NCBI GenBank assembly: GCA_946699065.1
Contig: CAMPDV010000126.1
Coordinates: 1-64,000 of the forward strand
Source: Loxodes magnus
Lineage: Eukaryota > Ciliophora > Karyorelictea > Loxodida > Loxodidae
Direction of reading: 5' to 3'
DNA: 64,000 nt
Shown here: positions 17,650-58,164 of the stretch, in pieces
Layout: each line of letters opens with the position of its first letter
Numbering within the stretch: position 1 is the first letter of the stretch
Notes under the pieces: generated by a model
What the model saw: the letters and a program-made list of their open reading frames with translations, nothing else
Databases searched by the model: none
What the model was told of the DNA's origin: nothing
Position numbers and translations under genes: made by a program

Positions 17650-19937
17650 TCAGTCTAAATAATTAATAGCTGCTAGAATTGAACTTACCTATTATTAGTT
17701 ATTAGCCTATTCTCCATTCAATATCCTTCCTAAGTTCCATCTTCGAATGTTGTAGTCTTTTGATTAAGGTGAACCATATCAATATGCTAACTTGTCTCCG
17801 TTACTCGATACCAACCATTAGTTGTCCCTAGATAATGATAAACTACCCACTGTGTCCGTATGACCCAATAGTACACAGATACATTATCCATTATTGATAT
17901 TTCATATTCTTATTGTCTTGTCATATGATCCAGATAAGATATACTTGTTGTTGCTCGAGAATATTACCGAAGTGACATAAGATGAGTGTCCCGATAAGAC
18001 TATTGTACAAGACAGAGTTCGAGAGTTCCATAAACGAATAGTTTAGTCTCACGATCCAGATATGATGAACTCTGAATCACTGGATATAGCCACAGATAAT
18101 ATAGAACTAGTGTGACCACTCATGGTCTTACAGGTACCTGTCTTGACGTCCCATAGTCTCACCGTCCTATCTCACTTCCCGATACGATGAACTCTGAATC
18201 ACTGGATATAGCCACAGATCATACAGAACTAGTGTGACCACTCATGGTCTTACAGGTACCTGTCTTGACGTCCCATAGTCTCACCGTCTTATCATAACTT
18301 CCCGATAAGATGAACTCTGAATCACTGGATATAGCCACAGCATATACAAAACTAGTGTGACCACTCATGGTCTTACAGGTACCTGTCTTGACGTCCCATA
18401 GTCTCACCGTCTAATCTTAACTTCCCGATACGATGAACTCTGAATCACTGGATATAGCCACAGATCATACCTAACTAGTGTGACCACTCATGGTCTTACA
18501 GGTACCTGTGGCTATGTTGTAGAGTCTTAGAGTTTTGTCATCAGAGCCAGATACTATTAAGTTAGAGTTTGGTGAGATGGCAACTGAAGTGACTGAGCTT
18601 GTGTGTCCAGTGAATATGTGTGGGTGCTCAGAAGTTATGGATGAGAGGTTAGCGTTGGAGAGGTCACAGTTGATGAATTTAGTGTTACGCAGGTTGGCGG
18701 TAGTTAAATTAGAGTTTGAGAAGTTACAGGAGGTGAATGTGGTGTCAGATATGTCCGAGTTGGTAAAGTCGATGTTTTGAAAGTTAAGTTGACTGAATTA
18801 GAGGTTTAAGTAATTAAGCATTGTTAAGGCATTTGCTGCTGCTACTTTTATTTTTGGTTGATTCTTTGCTAAATTCAGAATCTATAAAAGATTTTGATGG
18901 TTTTTCTCAGATTTTATTTGAATTAAATCATAAAGAATCATTGATTTTTGGCAAATGCTGATTTTGTTCAAAGGATTGTTCAAAATGGTGTTCATGTCGA
19001 TTTAATTGTTTTTGAATTCGTTAAGGATATTTTAAAGGTTCTGAATGCTTTCGATTTTGAGTTCTTAGATAGGCTACTTTGCTATTTTGACTGGCTATAT
19101 TTATTAAGGTATTTGCTATTAGATACTCTTCTAAACGTCTTATCTTTATACTTGATCTTTGACTTCTTCTTAAGGCTATTTTTTTGCTTACTTTTGCTAA
19201 GCAGAATTTTATTGCTCAATATATTTGCTTGTAACTAATGAGAAGTCCTAAAAATTTGGCCTTTATTCTTAATTCATATTCATTACTTCCTACAAGACTT
19301 AGAAAGAAACTTCTTATATTTTCTTAAAATTCTAATTAGTTTCTTATTAAGTTAAATCTCTGACACTATTGATCTTGCTTTATAATCCTTCATACTCTTC
19401 TACTAACTTATTCAAAATTTTTAAGCTGTTGCTGCACTATTGAATAGTTGTTCCTTTGCTTGCCTTTATTTACTAATATCTTTTTCAGATTATATTTATC
19501 TATCTTTAGACTTACTCGATTTGAACAATGCTCGTCTAAAAGATATTAAAATCTTTCTGGTATAAAGTCTATGCAACTTATTTGACTATCATACTGAAAA
19601 GCTTTTAGAAATCTAGGAACGTTTTAAAGATACTTAGCATTTTTTACTTTTATTATTTTGCCTAACTCGATAAGTCTTAAAACAACTAATTTAAATTTGC
19701 TTCATGCTCAAATTTATTTAGCTAAGACAAAAAATATTTTTTGATGTCGAAATTTTTCAGATTTTGTTCCTCTATACTAACTAATATTTTATGAATCTTG
19801 CATTTAATTGTATCACTTATTTAAAAAAAATTTTGAATACATTTTAAACAATGAATACAGCCACAACTTAATATTTTTGGTAATCTTTGATTTTAGTCGA
19901 ATTCTTCTTTGCAACTTTAACAGATAGTTAAATCCAT
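17650..19937 (-). CDS. RING finger / coiled coil / pentapeptide repeat / WD40 protein (one frameshift)
   Basis: About 762 residues, read with TAA/TAG=Q and TGA=W. The N-terminus has C6, C9, C25, C27, C30 and C33 in RING-like spacing (SCGCIHCLKC). A Q/K-rich coiled coil fills about 60-280. A helical segment ending in AAANALTMLNYLNL (about 355-380) leads into pentapeptide repeats (FSQLNFQNIDFTNSDIS..., about 380-435). Seven WD40 blades follow, enough for a full propeller; blades 2-5 are nearly identical in DNA. Trp from TGA occurs at HTSQVWSVAIS and GSWDQTIRLWN. The helical-pentapeptide-WD40 order resembles NACHT-linked WD proteins of ciliates and cyanobacteria (family knowledge), but a RING replaces the NTPase. 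It could act as an E3-ligase adaptor or sensor (inference). A single base is missing in blade 4 near 18,172, shifting the frame. This is either a real lesion or an assembly error in the 126-bp repeat. The stop is TGA at 17,650-17,652. Confidence 0.8.
18108..18510 (-). repeat. 126-bp coding repeats (WD40 blades)
   Basis: About three nearly identical 126-bp units, each encoding one blade with VRLWDVKTGTCKTMSGHTS. Nucleotide identity is so high that recent tandem duplication or gene conversion is likely. The unit centred near 18,172 is one base short. Confidence 0.9.
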
Positions 19938-20261
19938 TACTTATAATAGACTTAAGAAAAGTTTCGCAATAAATACCATATATTACAGTGAAATTAAAAT
20001 TGATAAAAAATAAATATTATTTAAAAATAAGAATTTATCAAAATTAGTAATTAATTTTGATTAAAAAAAATAAAAAATAAAAAAAATTTTGTCAATTACA
20101 AGAAATCAAATTATTAAAAAATGTAAAAATTTTCAAGAAAATAATTTTTTCTAAAATGTTTTTAAAGTCTAACATATAAATTCACTTATACGTAAAAAGC
20201 AAAATAATATGTCTGTATAATATAGCTTAAATTATACATAATTATTCCAAAAAAAGTTTAG

Positions 20262-20717
20262 AAAATAAATCAATTTAATTCTAGAGTGCGTAGCACTCTC
20301 ATTGGTGAGCAGCTCTTTAAAAAAAAATGTTTCATACTGACAAGAATTTTTGTTACTGATAAAATTATCAGATACTGATAAATCTTGTTCAATACTGATA
20401 TAATTTAAGAATACTCGTAATCTTTTCTACTTGCTGGAGGTCTAAGGACATGGCAGGATTATGTCTCATTGCATCACCAAAACAGAGGACGACATGTGTC
20501 AATTATGGGTACTTAAATTCCCCACCTCTGATGAAGCTCGCAATATTATTTCTTTTTCGTTCCAGAATTAAATCTAAACTAAGCCAGTGCCGAAGGTCTA
20601 AGAATCTTATGTCTCGAGGCCAAACCAAAGCAGAGGAAGACATAAAGTCGATTATGGGTACTTAACTTCCCCAACCTCTGATGAAGACGACCTTGTTGTT
20701 CACCTTCGAACAACTAT
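20262..20717 (-). mobile_element. SINE-like element A, copy 1
   Basis: In element orientation (minus) the body starts near GTTCGAAGGTGAAC. It contains two related half-units, each with GGGTACTTAA on the plus strand and CCTCTGATGAAG nearby, then several ATACTGATAA motifs. It ends in the common hairpin (AGAGCTG...GCACTCT-type) and an AAAT-rich tail at 20,262-20,280. Other copies are at 40,092-40,606 and 60,929-61,437. A 66-71 residue frame in the opposite direction (MAGLCLIASPK...) recurs in all three copies, but is most simply explained by copy identity. Confidence 0.85.
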
Positions 20718-20896
20718 ATAATAAGTAATTATTATGTAATAAAATCCAAAAATTAAAAAAAAACGTTTTTAAGAAATTTATTTATAACACTGCAAAAAAA
20801 ACTTATTAAAGATTATTACTACTCGATAAAATCTTAATTAAAATTTTTTTTTAAAAATAAATATAAAATGTTTAAAAAATATATAAAAGTTGAAAT

Positions 20897-21262
20897 ATAT
20901 AAATAAATTGGATTATAAAGTGCGTAGCACTCTCATTGGTGTGCAGCTCTTTAAATTAATTTTATTTAATGCCGAAAAATATTATTTATAGGTCTCTCTT
21001 TTCTCTCTTTCCTTGTTTTCTCTTCCTGCAGTACGTCCCTGTAATTTTTTCTAAAGTATAGGATGCAATATGTGATTACGGGTACATCTTTCCCGACCTA
21101 TGATGAAGAAAGTTTCCTCCTGGCATTCAGAGTTCTCCAACTTGCTACATCTTCCTTATCTTGTTATTAATTTCTCTTCTTCCTATTTATCCTCCGTCCG
21201 CGCTAATTTTTTTTTAGTTGCCAAGCAGCAACCGAAGGAAAAGCTTTCCACCCTATTTAAAA
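20897..21262 (-). mobile_element. SINE-like element E, copy 1
   Basis: About 365 bp, minus orientation. The 5' end lies near TTAAATAGGGTGGAAAGCTT. A core of GTACCCGTAATCACATATTG and TTCATCATAGGTCGGG is distantly like the half-unit of element A. The element ends in the same terminal hairpin (20,918-20,953) plus an AAAT tail. The second copy is at 60,304-60,668. It lies directly upstream of element A copy 1 on the same strand. Confidence 0.85.
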
Positions 21263-21782
21263 TATTACATAAAATAAAATATAATTGACAAAAATTAACA
21301 AAATAAAAAATAAAAGCTCTTATCTTTTCTTAAAAAAAATGACAATAAAAATATATAAAAATATATAAAAATATATAAAAATAAATAAAAATAAATAAAA
21401 ATAATTTCATAAGTAAATAGTTTGTGTTCGATATATATAATTTATATTAGCATAAATAAATACTTTTTGCTCCTGATAGTTTATTTTATAGTACTTATAT
21501 AATTAATTAAATTTTTTTCATAAAAAGATTTATTACGTACTTTTCTCAAGTATTTATTTTGTTCATTTTTACTTTTGATAGATACTTTTCAAAAATTTCT
21601 ACTTTGTATTCATAGTAACCCATTTTTTATTCTTTTACTTAGTATATATATTTTGTAGATATAACACAATTTAGTTTATTTACATAAGTTAATAATTTTT
21701 TTCATTGATACTTATTTGTGTTTTCATAAGTAAACACTTTGCGATCATTTGAGATATTTTATATTATTATATATAATATAAA
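21263..21782. other. AT-rich spacer
   Basis: Short ATAAATAAAAATA runs and A/T-rich DNA, with no gene or element recognised. Confidence 0.5.
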
Positions 21783-22900: not shown

Positions 22901-22949
22901 CCATATCTTATGACACTGATAGATGCTAATTTTTTACATTTGATTTCCA

Positions 22950-24020: not shown

Positions 24021-25181
24021 ATGAAAAAATTAAGATAGATTGTTGCTCTTTTCAGACACGGAGCAAGAGTCCCATTGAAACAACTTGATTTCGATAGAAC
24101 TAAATGACCTCGTGAGGAAGCCTAACTTACCCCTAAAGGTTGATTTTAGCTTCTTTAAAAAGGAAAACAGTTTTAAAATTAAGGAAAATAACTAAATCTA
24201 TAGCAAGTATTTGATAAAAATGAAGTAATGATAAGAAGTTCTGATAACTTAAGAACTTAAGAGAGTGCTGATGCTTTTCTTAGAGGGCTATATTAATATC
24301 CCTTAGATGAGTTGAAAGTAAAATAATTACCTTATAACTAAAATGAGGCTTAAGAAAAAAACCTAGAGAATTAGGACAAGTAATTTAAAATTCCTTCTCT
24401 AATTTTTCCTTAAATCGTTTATAAGAAAAATGAAGATTTCATCTTAAAACCTTATTTGGCAATAAAAGAAATATAAGTTTTAAGCGAAGAAGCAACAAAA
24501 TCTTAATACATAAAAAAGATTCTTTACTAGAATTAAAATTTCTTCAATAATATTGGCTTAAAGATAGGAGAGGAAATTAAAGACTTGGAGAAAGCTATGG
24601 AAGTTTATGATACCTTAACGTGTATTAAGTTTGAAAGAAATCAAAACATAATTTCTCCAGAGGAATTAAGAAAAATGGAAGATTTAGTATGCTCTTTTTA
24701 TTTTAATGAGTTTTCTTACTCTAAGCACTTATTAAATCTGTGCACGAAAGGATTTTTTTAAGATTTAATATTTCATATGGATACATCTTAAGTTAATAAA
24801 GATTGATACAAACTTGCTCTATATTTTGGACATGATAGTATAATGATAGCTATTTTAGAGCAAATTAAAATATGAAATTTTAGGCATCCAAACTTTGCAT
24901 CAAGTTTGGTATTTTAACTATGGGAGGAACAAGAAAAAAATTAGTTTACTGTAGAAATTGAATATAATGGTGAGCGATAAAGGATTCCTATCGAAACAGA
25001 AAGGTGTGAATATAAGGAGTTTAAAGATTATGTTAACAATATTCTCGAAGACTAAGTATAATAAATAAATTTATCTATCCTTTTTTAATAAATAGTTCTT
25101 CTTCTTAATAAATATACAAGCTTAATAAATAACTTTTAGTTTTTATTTATTATAAATAATATAATTCTAAAAAGAGATTGA
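24021..25181 (+). CDS. histidine acid phosphatase family protein
   Basis: 386 codons to the first plausible TGA. Family motifs are clear: RHGARVP at 12-18 (catalytic His13), KWPREEAQLTPKGW (Trp29 from TGA), RSSDNLRTQESADAFLRGLY around 75-95, and GHDS with His271-Asp272, the proton-donor pair, followed by the ASSLVFQLW segment. The family hydrolyses phosphate monoesters, and the branch with lysophosphatidate or inositol-phosphate substrates is the likely relative; the substrate cannot be told. No signal peptide is visible, so it is probably cytosolic, unlike secreted acid phosphatases. Homology ends near residue 344, where TAA.GTA.TAA.TAA follows (first TAA 25,053-25,055). If TAA can terminate here the protein is 344 aa; otherwise a poorly conserved tail runs to TGA at 25,179-25,181. 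No intron is required. Confidence 0.85.
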
Positions 25182-25254
25182 ACTTAAAATATTTAAATAT
25201 AATCTAAGTAAATTATTAACTATGTAATAGATATAATAAAAAATATAAGTAATC

Positions 25255-26221: not shown

Positions 26222-28063
26222 ATGGAAAAAATAACTAATAAAAGAGAAGGCTTGCATAAAAAAATAAGAAATCAGTGCTCAAAAGCTAAAAATGACAGCT
26301 AAGAAAATATTATTAATCAAGATTCTATTTAAGATAAAAATTCAAACTACTCGGAGGCCACTTAAATCCCTTCCTATTTTAGTTAAGTGCCTCATATTAC
26401 ATATTCTCCCTCTAATCATGAAGAAAAAACATTTCCATAAAAAAGACAGCGAGAAGAAGACTTATAAGAAATTAGGAATGAACTAGAAAAGAAGCCTAAA
26501 AGTTAAAAGAGCATCTTTTGATAAAATATAAATATTCTTTAGTATGCTTTTTAATTCCTAAATAAGATAGACTTGTGTAAGTTACAATAAGCTAATAAAT
26601 TCCTTTATAAATTAAAATATCATATCCCTAAATTAAAATTAGAAGACTATAACGGAAATTCACTTGTTGTATCTAATGAGATGAAATGAACTCTTAGTTA
26701 ACTCTTTTATTCAGACGTTTAGATTCTGTAAATTAACACTAAGAACTTGTCTAATCATTTATGTGATTAAATTTAGAAATTACTAAACAAAAATTTCTTC
26801 CAACTTAGTTCAAAATAAAAAGCAGTTCCACTATAAGAACTATAAATAATAGGTAGATTTGAAATGGATAAACTATCTAATATTTCTCAGTGCAGAAATT
26901 TGAAAAAGATAATAATTAAAAATGTAGAGCTGTCTGACTTAAGTTTAAGCTTTATGTAGAATTTACAAAAATTAGAGTATATTGAATTAGATAATAAATA
27001 CGGTGTCTAATTAACAGGATCTTTCCTTAATGATTATTGCTAAAACTTAAGTTTAAAAGTGTTAAAAATTTAAAGTCTTTTGATAAATATAGACCATATC
27101 AAAAATTATTTAGTACTAAAAGGGAATTAATTATAAGAAATTGATATTAACAGAAATAGATAGATAGAATAATTCATAAATCTATGTCCTAGATTGAATA
27201 AGATGAAACTCAAAGAAGCTACTCTTTTAAATGATAGGATATTAGAGAAAATTATGAAATTTGACTTGAGACAAATTAAAGTAAAAGATGCTGCTAATTT
27301 CACTCCTTCCATGCTTAACTTATTTCTAAGTAAACAATATTAAAGGCTTGAGAGTGTAAGCATTTATAAATGTAAGCAATTTAGTGATGATAACTTGATA
27401 GTGCTATTAAAAAACAGTCCTTCGTTGAAATATCTTAACTTGCAATGCTTATGATAGCTTAAAAGTTAATCCGTTTAATAAATAGGAGTTTATGGAGAAA
27501 ATTATATATAATTAACATTTGGATATATGAGTCAAATTACTAAGGAAACCTTTAACTTTATCTTTTCTTAGTGTAAATAATTAAAAAAAATCTCCTTTAG
27601 ATGCATTAGAGAAGTGGACTGCAAAACTTTATAGATTATAAAATAAAATTGCAGGGAGCTGGAGAGCTTTGAATTTTCTTGAGGGTATATTTCAGATGAG
27701 CAAATATTAAAAGAAATAGTAAACATAGAAAAATTAAAAAAGCTAAAGCTTGATGAAAGTAGCTTATAAGATATCGATGTAATATAAATAGTAAGTAACT
27801 GCAAAAATTTAGTTAAATTGGATCTGAGTTGAAATACAGATATAACTCCAAAAGCTTTTTAATTATATGATAATTAAAGTTAAAAATAACCAGTTTGCAA
27901 AAACTTGAAGTATTTAGATATTTCTTATACAAAAATAAAAATGTATGAAGCAGATTTACTAAGACAGCTATTTAAGAAAGCAAAAGTAATTCAAAACAAC
28001 TACATAAGAACGAAAAAAATGAAATTTAGTTTAGGGAATTTTGACTCTTTGATTAAAAAGTGA
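26222..28063 (+). CDS. F-box-like / leucine-rich repeat protein
   Basis: 613 residues in one uninterrupted frame with TAA/TAG=Q and TGA=W, ending in TGA. The low-complexity N-terminus is Q/N/S-rich. An F-box-like segment lies at about 97-140 (ILQYAFQFLNKIDLCKLQQA, then NKFLYKL). The remainder is leucine-rich repeats of the AMN1/FBXL type (LKYLNLQCLW, LVKLDLSWNTDIT near 530, LKYLDISYTKI near 570). Three TGA codons sit at Trp positions of these repeats, including LDLSWN, which is a standard LRR motif. Such proteins usually select substrates for SCF ubiquitin ligases (family knowledge); the target is unknown. The start is the first ATG, after an AT-rich leader. It lies 1.04 kb after the phosphatase stop and is followed by a kelch gene on the same strand; no shared transcript is implied. 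Confidence 0.85.
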
Positions 28064-29231: not shown

Positions 29232-29267
29232 ATGATATAATTGAGATGCTAATAAATAGCTGCATTT

Positions 29268-30302
29268 ATGAAATTTTATTATTTTCAGAATTAATTCTAA
29301 GTTATTTTAGATTAAGTGTGATAATTATTGAATAAAGATGCTTTATATTATTATTTAAATGGAGATACCTAATAAACAGGATTCTATTATTAAGATATTA
29401 TTCTTGAAAAAATTATGTAAGAATCAAGCTTCTAGTAATTCTAAATCCCTTCTATATGCATGAATTCCCCTTATGATTATTAAATATGAAATCAGTCCTA
29501 ATTTTTGCCATGCAATTTCGTAATATTCTACTATCATTTATAATTCTAACACGTTTAAGACTTTTAGATTAAGAGATAAGAATATAATTAACACATAAAT
29601 AAACATCCAAAAAACATCGAAAGAGGAAACTTATATAGAGCAAATAAGTAATTTTTAATGAATAATCTCAGGAGGAAGCAATTTGTTAGGATAACGATTT
29701 ACAACTCTTTAAAAAATCGATAAGATTTTTAAGTAAATGAGTATAAGACAATAGAAGAAAGAAGCTTACATAGAAGTATTTTCGATGAAAAAAGATTAGT
29801 TTATTTAATTGGAGGATCAAAATGCATATCACACGAAGCTTTCAATTTATAAACTTAAAAGTTTAGCTAAGTTTTGCCAGATTTTCCATATAAAATAAGA
29901 ACATTTGGATTGTGTCTTATACAAGATGAATTTTACATTTTTGGAGGTTTCTAAAATGAAAGATTACCTACCGATTAAATACATACTGCCTAATTATATG
30001 CATCAAAATGAATAGAATAAGACTTGAAGTTAGCAAATAAAAGTTCTTCAAGTGCTGCATATTCTAAAAAAGAGAACATGTGCTTTGTATGGTGTAGTGG
30101 AGGAAACCTCTGTAAGACATTCGCTTATGATTTTAAATAATTAATAGAACATGGAGAAAAAATGAACGAAAGCTCATATATTTATTCCAAGCCAATTTTA
30201 TTAGAGCATCTTATTTACTTCTTTAAGAATTCAGCAGAGCTATATTTTTATGATATAAGGAAGGGAACTTGGGCTTTTGCAGAGCAAAAAAGTTAATATT
30301 GA
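29268..30302 (+). CDS. kelch-repeat protein 1
   Basis: 344 residues from the ATG at 29,268; an in-frame ATG at 29,232 would add 12. The second half has kelch blades with the hallmark double glycine after hydrophobic residues: RLVYLIGGSKC (about 180) and DEFYIFGGFQ (about 220). A Trp four to six residues into later strands follows, read from TGA in ASKWIEQDL and from TGG in DIRKGTWAF. The end aligns with kelch proteins 2 and 3 (YDIRKGTW... against YDVKKGENWIKL) and closes with TGA at 30,300-30,302. The N-terminal 150 residues are Q/N-rich without a known domain. Kelch propellers bind protein partners, often cytoskeleton or ubiquitin-ligase components; which applies here is unknown. Confidence 0.75.
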
Positions 30303-32060
30303 AACTAAAATGAACTAAGACTTATAACTATATTAATGTCTTAAAAATAATTATCTATGGTTTTTATCTTTATCTTTCTTTAAATCCAAGGGAAAGAAAA
30401 GTTAAATCCAATAATTTAAATTAAATTAATAATAAATTATTTATTCTTTCTTTACTAAAATATTAATAATATAAAATACATTGACATTAATAAACTATAT
30501 TCGATCATAACGCTATTATAATTTATTTAAATGTTTTTATTTATTTTTCCCATTTTCCAAAATTTTTTAAATAATTAATGCGAATTTCTGTCGTCATGCT
30601 TGAAATGTTTGATTTTTTATATTTTAGGATGGATTAAGATCACTTTATTTTTGTTTGAATAGCTTAAAATTTCTATTTTTGTATAAAGTCATTCAGACTT
30701 TAGCGGGTATTGTATAGGTAAATTATTTGCTAGATATTCTATACTTAGTACCTAAGTATTCTTTATCAAAAATGAATTTTATTCTTAATTAAATTGATTA
30801 TTCAATCTATATAAAATATTCAAATTCTAAATATTGCAAATAGAACTTTCAAACTTGATAAATTTTGAAAAATTATTAAAAATATTCTGCAAGTTTAATA
30901 AATAATTTATTTTGGATTTTTATTAATAACCTCATTAATAAAAAAATTGCTTAAATCATATGTATAGTCTAAACCATTTTGAAGTCATTCTAGCCTTATT
31001 TGAATTTAATTAATTTACTGATTTAAATTTTATAACTAAGATATACTTAAAGGCATTTTTCATAATTTGATTTGTTTTACAAAGCAAATTCTTCATAAAA
31101 TTACTTTAATTCATTGTTGATAAATTAGTACAATAGCGAGTTTTTATCACTAATATCTGATAATCTGAGAAAACATAAAATAAAATAGTTTTTCTATTCT
31201 TTCTTTCATAAAGGAACTTCTTAGAGAATTAGTAAAAAATTTATCTAGAAGAATAAACACTTAATTTTTAAAATTAACCTTCTTATTAGTTGAAGTATGT
31301 TTTAGGTTTTTAACTAAAATTATTGAGTTTTTTTTATCTGAAAGTTTTTCCTTCAATTTTATTAATTTAAATTAGATAAAATATTAAAATGCTTGTATTT
31401 ATAGAATTTTTTATTTAGCCTTTATTTTTTTATTTTTAGCGCAAGAGAAACTATAAGATAATTTAAACATATTATTTCATAATTTGGTTACTAATTTAAT
31501 AAAAAGGTTTATAATATAAATAATCTAATAATTTTTGGAAATTAAAACTGAAAAATATGATAATTAAGTTTAAATATGTTAATTATATAATTTGAAATGC
31601 TGTTAGAATTATAAAGAATGATAAAAAGAAATAAGCATAGAGTTACAATAAAATAACATAAAATATTTATCTAAAAACATATTAAATTACTTTTAACATT
31701 TTTTATACTTAGCAGTATTTTTATTATTTTATAAATGTAGTATTAATTTAATTTATATAAATTGTACTTTAAAATTAAATTTATTTATTATTTTATATTC
31801 CAAAAAGTTTTTAATATTTAGATAAGCAAATATTTGAATTTAAGTCTATGAGAAATTATTACCTATTTTCTAAATGAAATAGATTATGTATTAGAATTAG
31901 ATTAAATTAATATAAATAAAAAATATTTATTGCACAATTTTCATATTATTTAGCAAACTATTATTAACTAAAAAGCTTATTCCTAAAAAAGCTAAAATAA
32001 ATATAAGAATAGATATAATATTGCATAATAGTTAAAATTTCAATTAAACTTTTTAAATTA
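30303..32060. other. AT-rich region with a possible minus-strand gene
   Basis: On the minus strand, around 30,560-31,230, one frame reads as plausible protein (KTRYCTNLSTMNQSNF near 31,130; LANNLPIQYPLKSEWLYTK near 30,700). There is no recognisable domain and no clear stop before it runs into the antisense of kelch gene 1. From 31,230 to 32,060 only A/T-rich sequence is seen. Confidence 0.3.
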
Positions 32061-32082: not shown

Positions 32083-32902
32083 AATAATATACTTAAAGTT
32101 AGTAGAGTTTTGCATTCTCTGGAATTGCAACCAGTTCCTGCGGACAGTTTTTTTAACGTGGGTGTGATCCACGACCTTTTTATTAAGTGGAAGGTTACCA
32201 TTGTAACCGTTCAAGTGGTCTTGCAAAAAACTTTTATTTGTAGATCCCTGTTGGAGTTATTCATAGTTTATTGAGTTGTCTCCATGTTCTTTTCTGCTCT
32301 TATTCGTTTATTTTCTTTCATTATCAACAGTTTTTTAAAATATGTTGATTTGATTTGCAACATCAACAGAGTTTGTATTATTGTCTTTATTTCGTTCTTT
32401 TTTATGATAATTTATTTGCTATATTTTCTAATATTTTAATGAAACTTGTAGCAATCATTTCTTTTTCTGGATTCAATTCTGTTTTTAATTCTATTGGTAT
32501 TTTTTCTATTTCCATTTTTGTGTCGTATTTAAAATTTTATTATGATTAAGTTCAGAGTTATTCTTCCGTTATTAATTTGCTACAAATAAGTTATCTTCTA
32601 ATTATTAGTAATTCGTTGTTCTAATCTTCTATGTTACTCATTAGTTCCCGTATTTTTTCGCCTAAGTTGTAAGTTGTTTCTTCATAATTTGAGATTACTT
32701 TTTACAGTTAGTCTAATTAAATTTAAAGTTTTTGATTAGTTTCGTTTTTAGGTTAACTTATCTCTATTTATCCTACCATAACTTTACCTTCTGAAGAAGA
32801 GCTTGACTCCTCCTATTGTTATTATTTTTTCTAAATTTCTTTTGCCGCTTTTCTCTTTAGGTTTCTAAGTTAATTTTTTGAGAGTCGAAGAGATTAATCC
32901 AT
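32083..32902 (-). mobile_element. retrotransposon ORF1-like element, open copy with TSD
   Basis: About 820 bp, nearly identical to 62,230-63,044 with no net length change. The open frame begins with ATG at 32,902, the very first bases of the element, and reads about 267 residues. It has a basic Q/S-rich N-terminus (MDQSLRLSKNQ), a coiled coil containing MSNIEDQNNELLILRRQL, and an exact C-x2-C-x4-H-x4-C zinc knuckle (CWCCKSNQHILKNC), in which the first Trp and the Trp after the last Cys come from TGA. The C-terminal part contains LWITPTGIYKQKLFA. Such proteins bind RNA in non-LTR retrotransposons. The 3' end is a TTA/TAT microsatellite. No reverse transcriptase follows, so it is non-autonomous or 3'-only. 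Confidence 0.8.
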
Positions 32903-32924
32903 TTTTTACCTTTTTTATTCTAAT
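32903..32924. repeat. target-site duplication, right
   Basis: Exact 22-base copy of 32,061-32,082. It abuts the ATG end of the inserted element. Confidence 0.9.
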
Positions 32925-34673
32925 ATAATATTATGTAATGTCGTTAAAATTATTAAATGTTTTTAAAAAAAATGAATTAATAATAAAAGGTTTCATTAAA
33001 AAAGAAATAAGATAAAAATTAAACTAAAATATAACGCTCTTAAAAACAAAAAAATTACTTTAATATATAAATTAATAGTTATTTTAAAATTTAAATAACT
33101 AAGATTATAATAAAGCAGATAAATTTTATTATTTTGAAGTTATTATAATAGATAAATATTAAGAATGATAATAAATTTAATTTTTAATTTATAGATTATA
33201 TAAGCTAAAAATATAAAATAAACGATATTAAATAATTAGATGACAAAGGTTAATTAGATAATAAATCCTAAATTAAATTAAAATTTTTAGTATACTTATA
33301 TTTAAAATTTATTTAATAAAATAAATAACTTTTAATGTGGATAATATCATAATTAATAAGCTTATTGATTATAGTGCTTTCTGAATAAAATAATTAGTTA
33401 GAAAATTCTATTAAATAACTAATTTTAACTATAATTAATTTTTATCATTTGTTTTTAATTCAAATTTTCTTAAAGAAATTGAAAATAATCATATTTTAGC
33501 CAGTTTTATTTAAATAGTACAAAACTAAATATTTCTATATTATGAAATATTTTTTAGTTTATATGAGATTTATAGAATAAGGTTACTCTTGAAAATAGTA
33601 GTGATTTATATTTTGTAGCTTACGTTTTTTTAATTTAATTATATAAATAAATAAAATCAGGATATTATATCATATTCTATTTTATCTAATTTAATAAAGC
33701 GTAATATTTACAATTATTTACACTATCCTAGAAATTTAGTAAAAAAAATATATATCAAGTTCTGATTTTTGTTTACTATTACCAGAAAATTTTTTTACAA
33801 GCTAGATATAAAGAATTTTAAAATTTATGAGTCTTTCATAAATTAGCTAATGTTTAAATCATATTACAACTTAATTCTATTTTTATTATTTACTAAAAAT
33901 CAAAATTTTATTAAATGATGGATATATCTTCTTTAAGAATGTTTAACATTAATTTAAATTAATTTAATTTAAAAATATTAAACTTAAAATCATAAAGTGA
34001 GATAGTTTCTCTGTTAAAAACAATTTATCTGCCTTCTTTAATCAAGCAATTTTTAAATATTTTTTTTAATCTTAAGTTATTTAATCTAGCTAATATTCTT
34101 TATACTTGAAGTATTTTGCTAATGGTTACCATTTTTTAATTTAATGTTAAGTCGAAGCATCTTTTATTTTCTATGGAATTTCTTAATTTTAAAATGTTGA
34201 TTTTCTTTTTTCTTTTTTCTGGTTATTAAGTTTCTACTTTTCCCTTCCTGGTACATTTAAATTTTAAGTTTCTAAGTTTTTTCTTTAAGGTAAACTAAAA
34301 TTAAAATGCTTTACATAAAAATAATAAATTTATTTAAAATACATAGAAGAAGAACCAAGACGAAGGAAAGTAGCTATTTGACAAAAGAGATAGCTATTTT
34401 TTAATCTTAATGAAAAATTTTAGATTCTATTTAAACAAAATATTTACCTAGAAGAAAATAAACAATCAAGCAAAATGTGAAAAATTTACATACTGACTAT
34501 TATGATATTTAACTAATATAATAATTAAAAAATATATAAACAATAAACAAATAAATTTAATCTATAATAAAATAATAAATAAAAGAAGAAAATATAATAG
34601 TATTTGCAATTGAAAGAGTAAAGGATAAAGAACAATTTTTTTGTATTTATTTTATTATTTAAGTTAAAAATTT
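32925..34673. other. AT-rich spacer
   Basis: Mostly A/T-rich. A minus-strand stretch near 34,050-34,300 reads KINILKLRNSIENKRCFDL and could be another decayed ORF1 fragment, but it has no diagnostic motif. Otherwise nothing is supported. Confidence 0.4.
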
Positions 34674-36092
34674 TCAGATGCGTATCCACTATTTTGATAA
34701 ATTTGTTTCATATTTGAGAACATGATCAACCTTTAAATCCCACATATAAATGCTTTCGTTATAATATATTGGATTATATCAAAATCTTAATTCTATCGCT
34801 TACATATCACAAGGAAAAGCTTTTCCGTGTTCAGTAAATTGCTTAGTATCAAAAATGTAAGTACTTTTCAACTAATAAGCACTATCAAATAGATAAATAT
34901 TATCCTATTGTAGAGTATGAACTGCAGAGCAACATTCTGCTTTTCTTGGTAGAGTTTATGGCATTATATCCCAGCACTCTTTTTAAACATTATAAATGCA
35001 TACTTTATTGGACTCATCATTATTTGCGCTTTTACCTCCAAAAGTTAAAATTTACTGATTTGTACTTGTAACTCCGCAATCAAGTATTTCAAAGATATGG
35101 TTCTTAATTGAGTTCACTTGACTGTTTTCAATATTAAAGCACATACATTAATTAGTAATTTAATTTTCAGAAGATTTGCCATTTATGATAAAAACATTCT
35201 TATTGTAATCAAAAGTAAGAGATGGGCATTGCTTAGGGTAAATTGAATTTACAGTTTAGGGCTATAAATCAGTAACTTTGGTAATAAATTTTTAGTGTTC
35301 TGGATACTTTCCTCCCACTAGTATAATTTAATTATTTCCAGTTTAGATCGAAGTAGTATAATCATTAAAAGTTGGTCGGAAATTAATAATGTCTTTTTAA
35401 GTTAATGTTTAGGATTTTAAATTAAGGATCTATTACTAATTACTATTTCAGTTTAATCTTATATAGTTTTAGTTTATTTATATTTTGCTAATTGTATTTT
35501 AAGGAGAGAAAGAACGCTAATTTATGCTTTAATTCTATGTCTGATAGTCTTTTTCTAGTTGCTCAAATAAATCTATTTATTTTTTCAACTCCATAAACAC
35601 TATACTTTTGATTTTATTTTCTATTTCATAAGTACTTACATGAACGTTATTTTAAGTTTATTATATTTATTTATAATTGTTTTGGAAACTTAAGTAGTAA
35701 ATCTAAAAATTATTTTTCTTTTCTTCTAGCTACTTTTCATCATCCGTTTAATCTTTCTCTAGTTTTGATATTAAACTTTTTAAATCATTTATTTCTTTTA
35801 ACATTTGTTCGATTTTATTTTAATTGATATTTATTAAGCTAAGTTCTCCATTTACTTATTTTTCGCATTCTGCTTATATCAATCGATAAAAATAGGCTTA
35901 AGTTATCATCGATGCTTGTTTTCACTGAATTTTTTTTGCCTTAATATTTTCTAGTAAAGAGTTGCAGTCTTTAATTTTCTAATCAATTGTAGCTTCTTAT
36001 TTATATTCATTTAAAAGGCTTAGTAGATTTTCCTTAAAAGATTTTTGAGATTAAGGATTAATATTTTTTTGGGAATACATGCAGCTACCCAT
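34674..36092 (-). CDS. kelch-repeat protein 2 with N-terminal coiled coil
   Basis: 472 residues, one frame, TGA stop at 34,674-34,676. Residues 10-200 are a long Q/E/K-rich coiled coil (KENLLSLLNEYKQEATIDQK, KIEQMLKEINDLKSLISKLE). The C-terminal half has kelch blades (NQIILVGGKYPE near 260; ILTFGGKSANN; a Trp in KECWDIMP; ELRFWYNPIYYNE with Trp from TGA). It is clearly paralogous to kelch 3 (57,169-58,164) and kelch 1. The chosen ATG gives MGSCMYSQ. The frame upstream encodes a hydrophobic run (LEIFAFIILMGSC) that would make a signal peptide if an unrecognised start or short intron lay before it. A B-box/coiled-coil/kelch (TRIM-like) architecture was considered, but no B-box cysteines are present. 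Confidence 0.8.
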
Positions 36093-37140
36093 TAAAATTA
36101 TAAATGCAAATATTTCCAAAAATTAAATTTCTAAATAAATTATTTAAAGTAAAACAAGCTTTATTATAACTATGAAAATATTTCATTTCAAATCTAAGTC
36201 AATAGCAAATATCAACTTTATTAGAAAATTATAGATCTCATCATAATTTTAACCTTTGTTCTTAGAAAATAAAAGCTCTTATTTATAGTACAAAATTAAA
36301 TTTTAACTAAGAATAGAACTTTAAAAAAATTAAAATTCGCTTGAAATTAAAGTGCTTAGTTGCTAAATAAAGGAATAAAAAGTTACAGGATAGAAATAAT
36401 AAGCAAAATTTTAAAATAGCTAACTGATAATTATTTTTTATATAATGATTTAACACAAAAAAGAATTTTTGCTTACATTGAAACATGCTAAATAAACTTC
36501 ATTTACAACTATTAAAAATATTTTCTATTTATTAATTTAAGTTTTTTATCTAGTTGTATTAGCGAAAACCATTTTAATAAAACTTTTTAATTTAAATTTA
36601 TAAAGTTATTTTATGCAAAATCTAATGAAGATATTCATAAAAATAATTACAATGGAAATTTAAATTTTCAAATATCTATAGATTTGTTAAAATAAGAATA
36701 GATATTAAACAATATGCCTAATTAAATAAAAACATTATTTTATTTTAGTTATTATTTCAATGTAAATAATCAAGTATCAATAGCTTAACAGATTTTTCCA
36801 CTAGAAATTTAAATATAATTTTATAAGTAAAAAAATAAGACTTAGCCTTATAAAAAGTTGTTTTTTTAATTTAGGCTCCTCATAATCAAGTTTGTTCAAC
36901 TTTTTATTTTTAAATTTGAAGGAAAATATCTCACTCAATTATCTATAAAACTAGCAAAGGATTTTTATTTAGAATTACCAATGCTTTAAATAGACTATAA
37001 AATTATTATTCTCCTTATATTTTAATTTATTTAAAGTCTGTAACTATTAAAAGTTTTCCATTTTTTTAATTCTATTCATCTTTAATATAGTTGTTTAAGC
37101 TTTAAATTAAAAATTCATTTCATAAAAATTAATTCTTTCT
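36093..37140. other. AT-rich spacer
   Basis: No coding frame with convincing composition, repeat or RNA gene was seen. Confidence 0.5.
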
Positions 37141-42925: not shown

Positions 42926-43517
42926 ATAAAAAATGTATATAAAATTTCTAAATAAAAAGAAACTTAGCAACTAAAATAGAAATTATTAAATTTTATAATA
43001 TTTTATATTTTTATATAAGTTAAATAGTTTCTATTTGTTAATATACTAATATCTTAGAAATAATCTTAAAAGCATCTAAAGATTCATAGTAAGTTTGAAA
43101 TAGGAAATAATTAACTTATAAAATTTTATAATATTCTCATTTAATCACATAAAAATCTATTAAATCTTATAATGTTTAATTCTGTTATTTATGTTTCTAT
43201 TAAATATATAATCCTTTTTTCTTTGAAGTAGTTACTTATAAAATCTTATAACTCTATAAAATAATCGATTACAAAATAAACTTTTAATAGAAGTAATAAT
43301 AATATTTAAATAGAAAGGAAATAAAAATGATATGGATAGAAATAATGCAAGTAAGCATAGAACAGATAGTATTAAATTTATGATAATTATATGATTAGGA
43401 TAATATGCTAAGTAATAAAGTTTATAAGAAATATATAGCTTTTTTTATTATTTTATTGTTTATTTCTTATATCTAAATTACTATTTAAGGCTATTATTTA
43501 TTTCATTTATAATGTAG
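42926..43517. other. AT-rich spacer
   Basis: Short loosely repeated TAAATTTTATAATATT-type strings; no gene supported. Confidence 0.5.
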
Positions 43518-45574
43518 ATTGATAAGTGTGGAGTTTGTGATTCTAAATTTAGTGAAAGTTAAGGAGCTTGCTTGAAATTAGAATGTGGGTGTGTTTGGTG
43601 TGAAGTTTGTCTTAGAAGAAATGAAAAGTAGGAAATAATAATTTAAGAAATGGATTAGATTAAAAATTTAAGTCAGAATAATCAGCAAAAGCTCTTAGAA
43701 GGAAATGAAGTCAAAAAGGAAGTTTCGAAAGAATAAGAATAAATAGAAGAATTTACAAAAAATGAAAAATAAGAAGAAACTTTTGTTATAGAGCAATAAA
43801 ACGCTCCATTAAAAGAAAAATCAGATCAAAAAGAAAACTATAAGTCTGAACTCAAAGAAGATTAAGGCAATTTAGTATTTTCAGGAGAAAAAGAAAATTT
43901 CTCAAACAAAAAAAGTTTTCCTTAACTTTTTTTGTGAAGATGATTAAGTAAAAATTTGCTTAATTTGCTTTAAAAATTCACATATATAGCATAAAACTTG
44001 TTTCCTTGAGGAGCATCTTGATTAGCATAACTTAAATAAAAATTAAGAAGGCTTCATTACATAAGAAAGTTAAATTTAGTAAATTGAATAAAAGTAGCCT
44101 CTTAAGAACTTGAAAATTAATAAATTCCATAATAAGAAATTATAATGCAAATAGAACAAAAAGAAGTAGACTAAATTACTACGATTGAAGTAAAAAACGA
44201 ATAAAGTACCTGCTCAAATTCTTTACTAGATAATTAAAATTATTAGAATCAATAATACGAAATTTAAAATGATTAACACGAGGAGGAAAAAAGTAATTAG
44301 AATTAGACCTTGTAGTAGTAAAATAATATTAGTTTAAATACATTAAATTAAAACTAATAGCTCTAAAAATAGCATCTTCTTTAATTTGATATTTTCACCG
44401 ATCAAATTTTTAAACCAGAAAATTTAAATGATTAACAGTTGAAGTGCTTAGGATGTTTTTATGGAATGGCTGTGGGAGATTCATGAGGACATTTGTATGA
44501 ATTTATTCCTGTATAATATGACTTATAAATGATTACTTCCTTAAATCCAATAGAATTCACTAAAAAGGAATTTATTCGTAATGAATTCAAGTTAAAGCCT
44601 GGATAATGAACTGATGATACATCAATGGGTTTATGTTTAGCTGATTCTCTTATTGAAAAATAATATTTAGACAAAATTGATTTAAAATTAAGATTTTTTT
44701 ATTGGTGAGTTTCAGGATATAATAATGCTTTTAAGTACGATGATTAAAGGCTTGACAAAGGCTCTGTTGGTTTAGGAATGCAAATAAGTTTGTCATTAGC
44801 TGAATTTGAAATGAATAGAAATATTGAAGACACTTAATAGGGTAGCAAAAATTCAAGTGGTAATGGGTCAATAATGAGGCTAGCTGCAGTTCCTATTATG
44901 TACTACAAAAACTTACAAAAAGGACTAGAAGTTTCAAGAGAGTAGGTAAGACAACTCATTAAGGAGTTGAAGCATATGATTGCTGTGTTTTAATGTCTTT
45001 TATCATATAAAAAGCAATAAATTTTGATTTTACTTCTATAGAAAACGAAAAAGCTAAAGTTTTTATTGATCAATTAGATTTTTCTGAAGTTATTGATTAA
45101 ATAGAGTCCAAAAGAGTAAAATGTATTGCACTTAGTTAACAGGAAGAAAATCATCCATTCGATAAATTTAACAGATGCAAAGAAGATAGTGATTGGAATT
45201 GAAAGCAGTAATAGTATAAATTTAGTCCTACAAGATCTAAATTATAGCCTATTTATATAGGTAGTTATGCATGTGACAATTTAAGCATGTCTTTGCATTG
45301 TGTCTATACGACAAACAGTTTTGAAGAAGCACTAGTTAAGGTTATTAATTTTGCAGGCGATGCTGATTCTACTGGTTCTGTTACAGGACAAATAGCAGGA
45401 GCTATATATGGAATAGGAGGAATTCCAGTTGAAACCTTTAAATCTGTTTTCTAATGGGAAAGAGGAGAAATGTATTAAAGAGTAATAAAATTAAGCTAAT
45501 TAGCAGAATAAAATGCAATATAATCTACTGAAATACCTGAAATAGATATGAATAACCAATAAGCAAGTCAGTGA
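43518..45574 (+). pseudogene. RING/B-box protein fused to ADP-ribosylglycohydrolase, three frame breaks
   Basis: The N-terminus has C6, C9, C25, C27, C30 and C33, the same spacing as the WD40 gene at 17,650-19,937. An acidic linker follows, then a B-box-like finger (CEDDQVKICLICFKNSHIQH) in the next frame. A Q-rich linker leads to an ADP-ribosylglycohydrolase domain: GMAVGDSWGHLYEF, PGQWTDDTSMG, NGSIMRLAAVP, TTHQGVEAYDC and GDADSTGSVTGQIAGAIYG, which carry the expected metal-binding Asp residues. This family removes ADP-ribose from proteins. Frame changes occur at a T7 run (43,927-43,933), near 44,095, and between 44,930 and 44,950; each can be explained by one base. The catalytic motifs are intact, so the lesions may be sequencing errors, a recent pseudogene or unrecognised tiny introns. 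The stop is TGA at 45,572-45,574. Trp is encoded by TGA at GDSWG, GQWTDD and FYWWVSG. Confidence 0.75.
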
Positions 45575-46015: not shown

Positions 46016-46650
46016 ATGGCACCTAAGAAACAAATGACCTAAAACTAATCTCTTAACTAACAATAAGATACAATGATTTAAATTTATTTGTTAAATTAAT
46101 TTTAGAGAAGATCAAAATAATGAATTGCTTATAATTAGACGTTAGTTAATCTAAAAAAATTTATTCACGGAATAGCAATTATAGTAGCAATCTTAAACGA
46201 ATCTTAAACAAAGACAAGAAATTATTATAGAAAAAGATTGTACTTAAACAAATTCTAAAGAAAAACAGAACAATGAAAAGATCGATTTAAATTTAATGAA
46301 AAGAATTGATTAACTAGGAAAAAAGTATTTATGAAAAAAATTAGAAAAGATAGACCAAAAAATGTTGGTTTTGCAAGTCAAATCTTTATTTACTAAAACA
46401 TTGCATTGGCTGGAAATAAATATAAATAAAACAACAAATAAGTACGTGAAAAACTCTTAATAGACTATGAATTACTGAAACTGGAGTCTATTAAAGAAAA
46501 TTATTTGCAGGAAATAAAGAAGATTTTAGTGGTTACCTCTCATGTAAAAAACTTGTATCGCGGTATCCATCCACGTAAAAAAAATGGAAGCAAGAAACTG
46601 GTCGAGATCCCAGAGATTGCAAAATTTTTAAACTTTAAGTATATTATTAT
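46016..46650 (+). mobile_element. retrotransposon ORF1-like copy, decayed
   Basis: Homologous to the element at 62,230-63,044. In one frame, CWFCKSNLYLLKHC matches the CCHC knuckle with His replaced by Tyr, followed by TWKTLNRLWITETGVYQRKLFA. The first ATG (46,016; MAPKKQMTQNQ) is in a different frame from the knuckle, so at least one frameshift has occurred. The 3' end is AACTTTAAGTATATTATTAT, the same TTA/TAT tail as the other copies. Confidence 0.7.
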
Positions 46651-51500: not shown

Positions 51501-51575
51501 TATTATAATAAAAATAATTTAAATTTTCTACTTAATTAAAAATAAATAACACTTTTTATCTTCTTTTTTAATTTT

Positions 51576-54480: not shown

Positions 54481-55865
54481 ATTGCTTTATGAATAGAGTA
54501 AGATTCGTTTTAAGAAACAAGATTTTGCAATATGTTTAAATTAAAAAATACTAAGATTTAAAAATTTTTTTAAATAATAATAATTTTAATCTTACAAAAT
54601 TTATTAAATATATTTATAATTTTTCAAGCTTATTTTTTATTTCTAAAGAAATTATAATTAAATTAGGAGATAGTTAACATTTTATTGAACAATCTTTTAA
54701 GTTCTAATTTATAACATTAAGAACTTTATAGATATTTTGTCTTTTTACATTAAAATATTGAAAAAAAGCATGCTATATATGTTAAGATCCTACATTTTAA
54801 ATGATTATTCTTCTCTACTCATCAATTACTGTTTCCTAGTAAATGACTAAATCTTTCTTGAAAATGTAAACATAGCAAAAGAAAGTTTTCATTATTTACA
54901 ATGTTTACATTTTATACCCATTTATTCTCAATTATTACCATTAAATTTTCTTTTTAAAAACGGCAATATTTTATAGAATGCAAATCTGATTTAAAGAAGA
55001 GCGTTTAAAGAATGCTTCGGTGCAATAGAAGATCTTGATATTATATAAATATTATTCGTAAAAAAGTTTACTTGAATACGTTTAATAATTTGGATGAGTT
55101 CATATTTCTCAGCCTCTCAAGAATTTTATTTATTTCCTTTTAACATCTGAGCATTTAGCGAAGCGCATTTCGAGTAAATTTTCTTAAGAAACCAATGATA
55201 AAAGCATACAGTGAAAATTAAATTCACCCTGATCAAGAATCTGCTTTTTCCATAAGAATTTTCTCATTTTTACCATACCTTAATCTGGTAAGCATTTCCT
55301 TTTCATTACTGTTAGTTTCCGAATTAGACTACAACTTTCTCACTTCTTTTTTCCCTGCACAACTATAATAAAATTTCCAAAAAAAGGACTTTAACTGGGC
55401 AAACTTATATATTTGTACGGAAAAAATTTGAAATTTAATAACTTTATAACTTATTAAAATAATGAAACTATAAATTTAAATTTTTTTTTAATGATTGGAC
55501 TATTTTAGTTATTAACTGTATAAATAAAAATAATACGGTTAAATAAAACAAATATAAAAATTAAACTAAATAATTTTAAAATAATTGCGAAATTTAAACT
55601 TAATTATTTTTAATAAAAATAGTTAATTTTTATAATTTTATTTTAACATTAGCAATATAAAAAAGAAACATCAAAAAGATATTTTATTTAATCAAGAAAA
55701 TAGAAATATAATAAATTTGATTTATTTAATTTAATTGTTTTTGCATTTATTAAATTTAAACCAAAAAAAATAAAATATTATTAATACTTATAAATAATTA
55801 CAGCAAAAAAATTTAAAAAAATTTAAAGATATAAATAAATTTAAAAAATAACAATAAAGTCAACG
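54481..55865. other. spacer with a possible minus-strand coding fragment
   Basis: Between about 54,800 and 55,390 the minus strand is somewhat GC-richer and reads as protein in one frame (MVKMRKFLWKKQILDQGEF; GEFNFHCMLLSLVSQENLLE; HPNYQTYSSKLFYEQYLYN). A second frame is equally open. No motif identifies it. The flanks are A/T-rich. Confidence 0.3.
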
Positions 55866-55879
55866 ATTAATGAACGCAA
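55866..55879. repeat. 14-bp target-site duplication of element D, left
   Basis: ATTAATGAACGCAA is repeated exactly at 56,194-56,207, flanking element D copy 3. Confidence 0.88.
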
Positions 55880-56193
55880 CAATAATTGAAAAGATGGTGG
55901 GAGCTGAGAATGACCTACGTGACTAAATTTTCTGGTTTTATGGGTAGGAACAAGTTCCTTTCCTGTCGCTGAGAAAGTCTCTGGTCAGAGTCATTTTCTG
56001 AAGAGAACGCTGTCTTTGAGATTATCCGCTCTTGGTAGGGACTTAAAGCCTGGCTGCTCATAGCGATGGAGCTCCCTAGCAGCTGTGCCTGGAGCACAAC
56101 AGGATATCCCCGTTATTCCATAAAAGAGAGCGTCGGGTCGTGCAATCGGAAAGGAGTTTCCGGTCCAAAAACTTTTTTAGTTGAAATTAATTA
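55880..56193 (-). mobile_element. dispersed element D, copy 3
   Basis: About 314 bp, almost identical to copy 2 (37,157-37,463), and bracketed by its own 14-bp direct repeat. This dates both as recent, independent insertions. An open frame of 60 residues lies on the minus strand, but it is disrupted in copy 1 and the opposite reading is also open, so coding is doubtful. Confidence 0.9.
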
Positions 56194-56207
56194 ATTAATG
56201 AACGCAA
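56194..56207. repeat. 14-bp target-site duplication of element D, right
   Basis: Exact repeat of 55,866-55,879. Confidence 0.88.
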
Positions 56208-57168
56208 TAAATTAGAAACATATTTATTATATTTTTGATGAATTTTGTTTTTTTTTATTTTTCTTTATTTTAATATTCCATAATATGTAATTTAGTAAGC
56301 TATATTTAGATATGCATGTTTTTATTTGAAAATTTTTTCTAAATGTTTAATTATGTAATTTAAATACATATTTTAGTCTTTCACATTCATTGACTACAAA
56401 AGATTTTATTAATTATTAAACTTTAACTTTAAATTTACTTAGAAGATATTATATTAAAAATTAGCTAAAAAAGGATTTTTGATAATTTCATTATTTATTT
56501 ATTTACTTTATATATTGAACAATAATAGATAATTTTTAATTGCAAAATAAATATAATTTTTGGCTTAATTTAAATATTTTATTTGCTTATTAAAAAAGCA
56601 TAAATTTGAGAATATAAGATTCAATATTATTATAATAAACACTTTAAAGTTATTTTAAAATATGTTTCTATATTTTAATAGGATTAATCTTTTTAATTAC
56701 AATTTTTTATCTTTAAAATGAAATATTTTTTAATTAAAAATATTAAAAGAATGTTATCAAGATAATTTAAATCTAAATAAGGCATAAAAGTTAATCTGGC
56801 TATTATGAAATTAATTTTAATAAATATTTAAATTAAAAATTTATTTAAGTAATTTTTCATATTTTAGCTTATAAATTAAAATATAAATCAAGCTTTATAA
56901 GTATGAAATTTTCTAGGGGTAGTTTCTTGCTTAATATATTTATTAATTAAAATTATAAAAATGATTATATTTACTTTAATTTTATAAAGCTATTACTATA
57001 ATAGTAAATTTAATTTTTCTCTTCATTATTTTAAATGAAATTTATTTTTTGTTTCAAATTAAAATATTTCTTTTAGTTAGCAACCCAATAAAATATATTT
57101 AAAAATCACAAATATATTTTTTTAGTTTTAATTAAATTTTTTTAAATAAAAATGTTTAATAAATAAAA
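56208..57168. other. AT-rich spacer
   Basis: No coding sense, repeat or RNA gene was recognised between element D and the stop of kelch gene 3. Confidence 0.5.
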
Positions 57169-58164
57169 TCATAATTTAATCCAATTTTCTCCTTTCTTTA
57201 CATCATAAATGTAAATTATTGAAAATGCCGAAGGTTCATACATGTAAATTTTGTTGTTTTGATAAATTGAGTTGTATCAAAAATTATAACCTTTTGTGAA
57301 TGGAAATTCTCTACCTTGCTCTTTAATTCTTTTTCAATCGTAAATGCATGTACTTCCTAGCCAATTTCCATTATCAAATAATACTATTTATTTATAATCC
57401 CATAGAAATACTGCTGAAATTCCTTCTGCGCTTTATGGTAATTTTGTTTATTTTTTTTCAATTCATTTTAAAGTTATCTCATCGTACATAAATATGTTAT
57501 CTAAAAAGAATGATTTCTAAATCATATACCCACCAAATGTTAAAATCATATCGTAACCATAACATGTGCCAGTGCTTGACATTTTAAAAGGATGATTAGC
57601 AATTTTTTTAATAGATTCATCTTATAAATTATAGACTTCACATGCATTTGTATCTTATTTATTTAGTGGATGGCATCCTCCTATTATATAAACTAAGATC
57701 TTATTGTTGAATGTAATGACTGTAAACTATCTTGGCTAATCTAATTTGTACTTTTAAATTTCTTATTAATTTATTAAGAAAATAAATTTTGAGTGAGATT
57801 TTACATTAATTCCACCTGCAAGAAAAACTATTTCATCACTTATCTAATAAGAATAAGTAAATTCATCTTTAACTGCATCTAAATTTTGAATTCTTAACTC
57901 TTAATTGAAAGTAAAATTGGAGGGATTAAATGCTTATAATGACTAAGAGTTATACTTTATTCGTTTGTATTATGTTATACTTTAAGGATTTGTACATGTT
58001 CTTAAATTTATATCCAAGCAGTGAAAACATTAATAAATTTCAAATCTAATAAAATCTATTCCTAGCTTTGCTACAATACAGCTTTTTTCAAATTTTTGCG
58101 ACTTTCTTATAAGTTTTCTAATAAACAAAATTCTAACTATTTATTTATCTTATCTTCTTTCCAT
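57169..58164 (-). CDS. kelch-repeat protein 3
   Basis: 331 residues in one frame from ATG at 58,164 to TGA at 57,169-57,171. Kelch blades are visible as DEIVFLAGGINV (about 110), ILVYIIGGCHP (about 160) and MILTFGGYMI (about 210). Trp residues at the conserved place, several from TGA, occur in LKWIEKK, YDWKRIKEQ and NFWYNSIYQN. The last segment (IYDVKKGENWIKL) matches the ends of kelch proteins 1 and 2. The N-terminus is basic (MERRQDKQIVRI) with a Cys-His cluster (EIYQCFHCLDINLRTC) that could bind a metal. It lacks the coiled coil of kelch 2. The function is probably as a protein-interaction propeller; partners are unknown. Confidence 0.8.

Follow-up and report, generated by a model that had tools for sequence, protein, structure and literature searches.

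The stretch of DNA considered here, referred to as the window, comprises bases 1 to 64,000 of contig C126 (CAMPDV010000126.1) of the ciliate Loxodes magnus, and the question it raises is how UAA, UAG and UGA can be read as sense codons inside its genes and how those genes then end. The genome searched contained 705,730,643 bases in 7843 contigs; the published macronuclear assembly is described as 706 Mbp in size and rich in tandem repeats, with introns averaging 19.3 bp (PMC11441545). The window begins with a satellite at 1-15328 (80-bp unit, about 190 copies, 91% matches). With the karyorelict nuclear code (NCBI table 27), Pfam profiles recovered each of the domains that a sequence-only reading of the window had named, namely WD40, acid phosphatase, leucine-rich repeat (LRR), kelch and ADP-ribosylglycohydrolase, in the following features:

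17565..19952, minus strand: gene with pentapeptide and WD40 repeats (PF00400, E 2e-42; PF00805, E 4.9e-9), with TGA at V-X-SVAIS
24021..25055, plus strand: histidine acid phosphatase (PF00328, E 4.1e-17, profile positions 1-354 of 354, scored on the frame 24021-25061), likely stop TAA at 25053-25055
26222..28063, plus strand: LRR gene (PF13855, E 1.2e-6; PF12799, E 1.9e-6), stop TGA at 28061-28063
29253..30473, plus strand: kelch-repeat gene, with a weak match below the curated cut-off (PF24681, E 2e-5)
34601..36098, minus strand: kelch-repeat gene (PF24681, E 8.4e-12; PF13418, E 5.6e-7)
43512..45574, plus strand: ADP-ribosylglycohydrolase gene (PF03747, E 5.8e-49 when spliced), motif G-TAA-TGA-TDDT, stop TGA at 45572-45574
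44931..44950, plus strand: putative 20-nucleotide GT-AG intron within the ADP-ribosylglycohydrolase gene, proposed because its removal restores one continuous PF03747 domain
57060..58299, minus strand: kelch-repeat gene (PF24681, E 5.4e-8; PF01344, E 2.5e-6), TGA after the frame

Splicing of the ADP-ribosylglycohydrolase gene at this putative intron yields a protein of 680 residues that covers positions 1-286 of the 287 in the PF03747 profile and scores 167.7 bits, compared with 91.5 and 82.3 bits for the unspliced halves. The 20-nucleotide intron and the code are both in line with what has been published for L. magnus. The genome paper states table 27 for this species and gives UGA as the only stop codon, read as tryptophan (Trp) when away from the poly-A tail (PMC11441545), and a 2019 transcriptome study assigned UAA and UAG (UAR) to glutamine (Gln) and UGA to stop in Loxodes (PMC6935857). 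The tandem repeats, the domains found with this code, the tiny intron and the published code support the suggestion of the sequence-only reading that the window comes from a Loxodes-like karyorelict genome. We put the probability at roughly 90% that the window is macronuclear DNA of L. magnus read with table 27, with all three stop codons serving as sense codons and UGA also as the main stop, and with the mechanism proposed below. The code itself is already known for this species.

Within the WD40 gene, the repeat copy at 18150-18180 (minus strand) does not share the frame of the adjacent copies, and the gene is therefore broken or misassembled near 18,160. Closely similar WD40 repeats form long arrays on contigs C1503, C119, C9, C272, C1832 and C620, often at a spacing of 126 bases, and some of the repeats in these arrays contain an in-frame TGA.

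That all three standard stops are used as sense codons inside genes, as had been proposed from the letters of the window, was confirmed by the domains found with table 27 and by in-frame codon counts. The acid phosphatase gene (344 codons) has 19 TAA, 6 TAG and 4 TGA codons in frame, the LRR gene (613 codons) has 35, 8 and 5, and the ADP-ribosylglycohydrolase gene (680 codons) has 46, 13 and 9. Across the 1637 codons of these three best-defined genes there are 100 TAA, 27 TAG, 28 CAA, 11 CAG, 18 TGA and 5 TGG codons; TAA and TAG thus account for 127 of the 166 codons assigned to Gln, and TGA for 18 of the 23 assigned to Trp. Usage in 47 predicted coding segments of positions 1-264000 of the contig was, per 1000 codons, 59.1 for TAA, 22.9 for TAG, 23.9 for CAA, 8.3 for CAG, 11.7 for TGA and 6.0 for TGG. 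Every one of the 150 listed Ras matches in the genome contains an in-frame TAA, TAG or TGA, and among the 20 best of them TAA occurs in 20, TAG in 18 and TGA in 9. These counts support a sense reading of UAA, UAG and UGA within genes.

The meaning of UGA was assessed by masking every stop codon as X in three window genes before they were aligned to relatives. The masked TGA in the GXXTDDT motif of the ADP-ribosylglycohydrolase lies opposite W, W, I, I and Y in the five PDB relatives shown, and the TGA in the K-TGA-P motif of the acid phosphatase lies opposite W in all four of the shown alignments that cover the site, with relatives that are near-copies of two bacterial proteins. Comparison of three paralogous acid phosphatases gave 22 ordered TGA pairs (each pair counted twice), in which the partner codon was TGG in 8, TGA in 6 and another codon in 8. 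Together these alignments support a Trp meaning for UGA at conserved columns inside genes. When the contig was compared with itself in all six frames, W stood at 139 of 3067 TGA positions, but this comparison was discarded because it mixed coding and non-coding frames of repeats; it left out the satellite, self hits, hits above 80% identity, hits shorter than 80 and pairs of places separated by under 300 bases.

For UAA and UAG, one TAA of the acid phosphatase is opposite Q in two of the four masked alignments covering the site, and a TAG in Pelota, read with code 27, is opposite Q in two of the three relatives shown; in the masked WD40 alignment, TAA and TAG fall opposite D and K. The 106 TAA pairs among the acid phosphatase paralogs match TAA in 32, K in 15, N in 9, TAG in 9, E in 7, and Q, L and Y in 5 each, the rest being rarer codons or gaps. 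A Gln meaning for both codons is supported by this weaker alignment evidence together with a tRNA bearing a CUA anticodon (see below) and the literature.

In Ras and Rab proteins, the stop codon follows directly on a cysteine motif. In the 20 best of the 150 listed Ras matches the tail ended at TGA every time, 17 times after the cysteine motif and three times after a similar end in Y; six of the 20 tails could be followed only with a frame change, of the kind that a small intron produces. By simple arithmetic, 20 TGA ends in 20 are still compatible with up to about 14% of other stops, and two of the 17 cysteine-motif tails may stop at TAG, since both read CCK-TAG-TGA. With the ends of the LRR and ADP-ribosylglycohydrolase genes, these tails support UGA as the main stop at gene ends. 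The sequence-only reading had held that TGA closes the genes whose ends are defined by homology; this holds for the LRR and ADP-ribosylglycohydrolase genes and fails for the acid phosphatase gene, where homology ends at the TAA at 25053-25055 and the next in-frame TGA lies 42 codons further on.

The acid phosphatase family is where a second stop codon may be found. Of its 18 matches in the genome, the three closest were aligned. In the 54%-identical paralogs at C63:998329 and C121:549565 the homology also ends at TAA, with the next TGA 75 and 44 codons on, and these two paralogs share the 10-mer TCTTAACACT at the TAA site. The GC content of the 150-base stretches preceding and following the TAA is 0.30 and 0.13 for the window copy, 0.27 and 0.20 for paralog L010, and 0.26 and 0.25 for paralog L011, so that the drop is missing in one of the three. 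Since all of them belong to one family, the TAA ends may reflect one inherited event and not three, and several of the more distant acid phosphatase matches in the genome do arrive at TGA. Short GT-AG introns that might rescue an early TGA in these genes were enumerated and rejected, as those judged to reach it would delete conserved residues. Three other genes of the contig, at 74167, 86734 and 94870, have no in-frame TGA near the end of homology and were not counted, as it is hard to place their ends. A change-point scan for stops at the coding ends of 47 segments gave enrichments of 1.71 for TGA, 1.04 for TAA and 0.65 for TAG; the scan was set aside as too blunt to speak for or against UAA stops, because several unrelated codons scored higher. 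A 2022 abstract by Seah reportedly allowed for stop-UAA in a small minority of transcripts. In Loxodes, UAA and UGA, but not UAG, are described as depleted ahead of stops (PMC11441545). The acid phosphatase ends thus partly support the view that UAA also terminates in some genes.

One possibility is that table 27 holds strictly, with UGA as the sole stop, and that the 42 to 75 residues past the TAA in the acid phosphatase family are simply C-terminal tails encoded by AT-rich sequence. We consider this quite possible, if slightly short of an even chance. It agrees with the Rab/Ras tails, all 20 of which end in TGA, with the GC content of one of the three paralogs, which hardly drops past the TAA, and with the genome paper, which gives UGA as the only stop (PMC11441545). 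It does not readily account for the TAA that all three paralogs have in one column where homology ends, with TCTTAACACT there in two of them, or for the poor alignment of the translated tails among the paralogs, and GC content does drop in the window copy (0.30 to 0.13) and in L010 (0.27 to 0.20), though only from 0.26 to 0.25 in L011. In addition, the mean 3' untranslated region of L. magnus is given as 53 bp (PMC11441545), and therefore many acid phosphatase transcripts would finish ahead of the next TGA.

The Condylostoma code (table 28), in which each of the three codons can be sense or stop, would accommodate the UAA at which the acid phosphatase family appears to stop, possibly the three contig genes with poorly defined ends, and a TAG stop in the two Rab tails with TAG-TGA; since the 20 Rab tails are without any other UAA or UAG stop, we regard it as improbable. 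That the stop-containing frames are pseudogenes or assembly errors is hardly credible, for although one WD40 repeat copy does break frame near 18,160, such codons are present in 150 of 150 listed Ras matches and in domains that are otherwise well matched, the genome's own eRF1 and Pelota carry them too, and TGA pairs with TGG among paralogs.

How might one codon be read in two ways? Among the components that the sequence-only reading pointed to were tRNAs for the reassigned codons. A tRNA with a CTA anticodon adjoins the acid phosphatase paralog on C121 (ARAGORN; Rfam score 68.5 bits), and its body is presumably that of a tRNA-Gln. Genes for tRNA-Trp were also found, with narrow patterns and with CCA only. 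An exact pattern that allowed either CCA or TCA matched two genes in the genome, both with CCA, and a wider pattern reaching from the D arm to the anticodon loop with up to three mismatches gave 169 matches compared with none for its reversed control. Of the 100 matches listed, 48 are on C67, 50 on C148 and 2 on C110, and 98 lie within two tandem arrays:

C67:482300-491368: tandem array of tRNA-Trp(CCA)-like genes, 48 listed copies about 188 bases apart
C148:155441-168962: tandem array of tRNA-Trp(CCA)-like genes, at least 50 copies, mostly 241 bases apart

The anticodon is CCA in all 67 of the 169 matches for which letters were printed. A tRNA-Trp(UCA) was seen neither in the two genes of the exact search nor in these 67, with narrow patterns that may have missed other forms, as the exact pattern itself missed at least 98 array copies. 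Position 27 is A in the C67 copies and T in the C110 copies and in the printed C148 copies (array copies were read to position 38), and the A in the C67 copies could break the top pair of the anticodon stem. Among 63 listed tRNA matches, other tandem arrays are present on C103 (527 bases apart), C78 (1753 bases) and C158 (1752 bases), and six more matches outside these arrays are all tRNA-Lys(UUU).

The release factor offers a second component. The best match in a PF03463 search was Pelota. C196 carries the other two, which are eRF1-like; one of them was aligned to eRF1 chains, and the second differs little from it. In human numbering, the eRF1-like protein carries E55A, T58R, S60Q (encoded by TAA), S70A, S123T, L124F and Y125F, and retains the GTS loop, NIKS, C127 and F131, so that the changes in eRF1 expected from the sequence-only reading are indeed present. 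These residues were read against 2MQ6, itself a Y125F mutant, and the other aligned rows show Y at 125. The motifs named for eRF1 are GTS, Glu55, TASNIKS, Ser70 and YxCxxxF, and a Ser70Gly change has been linked to UGA readthrough (PMC12153298). The release activities given for human eRF1 single mutants on UAA, UAG and UGA are 100%, 34% and 100% for Y125F and 75%, 35% and 80% for E55Q (PMC4698671, Table 1). Release at UAG is hurt more than release at UAA in both mutants, which would fit a residual UAA stop.

We propose that UAG would be decoded by the tRNA-Gln with a CUA anticodon and UGA by tRNA-Trp(CCA) present at very high copy number, perhaps aided by a shortened anticodon stem. The eRF1 would be weakened at its stop-reading residues, with E55A and Y125F expected to hurt UAG more than UAA, and S70A altering the position tied to UGA readthrough in Blastocrithidia. 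The tRNAs and the weakened eRF1 would then compete at each such codon, the tRNAs winning far from the mRNA end, and eRF1 winning at UGA near the 3' end and, for some genes, at UAA there as well; an effect of position on the choice between sense and stop is described in the literature (PMC11441545, PMC4967479). The outcome would be an ambiguity of two codons, in which UGA, and UAA in a minority of genes, terminate near mRNA ends and UAG is fully reassigned. The asymmetry would be set by eRF1, with Y125F and E55A sparing UAA over UAG and S70A weakening UGA inside genes, in competition with at least 98 tRNA-Trp(CCA)-like genes. We hold this extended account tentatively, at a little under even odds. 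Its appeal is that the changes at E55, S70 and Y125 and the amplified tRNA-Trp genes would explain in concrete and testable terms why a single codon can serve as sense in one place and as stop in another, and may also explain why UAA, and not UAG, is depleted before Loxodes stops (PMC11441545). In the portions available of the open-licence PMC literature, we found no prior report of the eRF1 residues or the tRNA-Trp arrays of Loxodes, and the word tRNA is absent from the main text of the 2024 genome paper (PMC11441545).

Several observations weigh against the table 27 reading and its proposed mechanism. The TGAs of the ADP-ribosylglycohydrolase, acid phosphatase, WD40 and LRR genes lie partly at columns without W in relatives. 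In the masked alignments, the other two TGAs of the aligned ADP-ribosylglycohydrolase domain are not opposite W, and the remaining three of the acid phosphatase are matched, in the alignments read, by M, K, P or F, although a paralog has TGG at two of these three. The first V-TGA-SVAIS of the WD40 gene is opposite W in two of five alignments to 2YMU and in none of four to the designed protein Tako8, and the LDLS-TGA-N of the LRR gene has W in none of five paralogs on the contig. Thus, of the Trp positions proposed for TGA by the sequence-only reading, those in GQWTDDT and KWP stand, with W in most relatives shown, that in LDLSWN does not, and that in VWSVAIS is mixed. Among the acid phosphatase paralogs, CAA or CAG is opposite TAA in 5 of 106 pairs and opposite TAG in 5 of 34, so seldom that a Gln meaning is plausible yet unproved by the paralogs alone. 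At gene ends, the 20 TGA ends in 20 Rab tails make UAA stops a minority at best there. As for the mechanism, the two tRNA-Trp genes on C110, which were read whole (60.4 and 59.6 bits), have a 5-bp anticodon stem of five standard pairs including U27-A43, which differs from the 4-bp stem cited for Loxodes tRNA-Trp in two papers. The mutant measured was E55Q and the Loxodes residue is E55A, and for S70A no measurement was found in the cited work.

Apart from the genes discussed above, the window contains an interspersed repeat with a coding-like frame (NNELLI-RR) at 32108-32920 (minus strand), 46107-46382 (plus strand) and 62250-63056 (minus strand), with a further copy at 8801-9298 of L027. A Pfam search with the segment at 32108-32920, the first copy, gave no match; the repeat could be a retroelement.

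The closest known system is the karyorelict nuclear code of Loxodes and Parduczia (table 27; Swart 2016, Seah 2022, 2024), with which the window agrees in reading UAR as Gln, in reading UGA as Trp or stop, and in its tiny introns; unlike strict table 27, the acid phosphatase family here appears to stop at UAA. Condylostoma magnum (table 28) is alike in using all three codons as sense, and in this species, too, a tRNA-Trp(CCA) is described and a nuclear UCA tRNA is given as not found (PMC4967479). In C. magnum all three codons also terminate, whereas here UGA dominates and a UAG stop is not clearly seen in the 20 Rab tails. The nonstop code of Blastocrithidia differs in that UAR is read as Glu and UAA is the sole stop, yet UGA is Trp in both systems and eRF1 position 70 is changed in both, to Gly in Blastocrithidia and to Ala here (PMC12153298).

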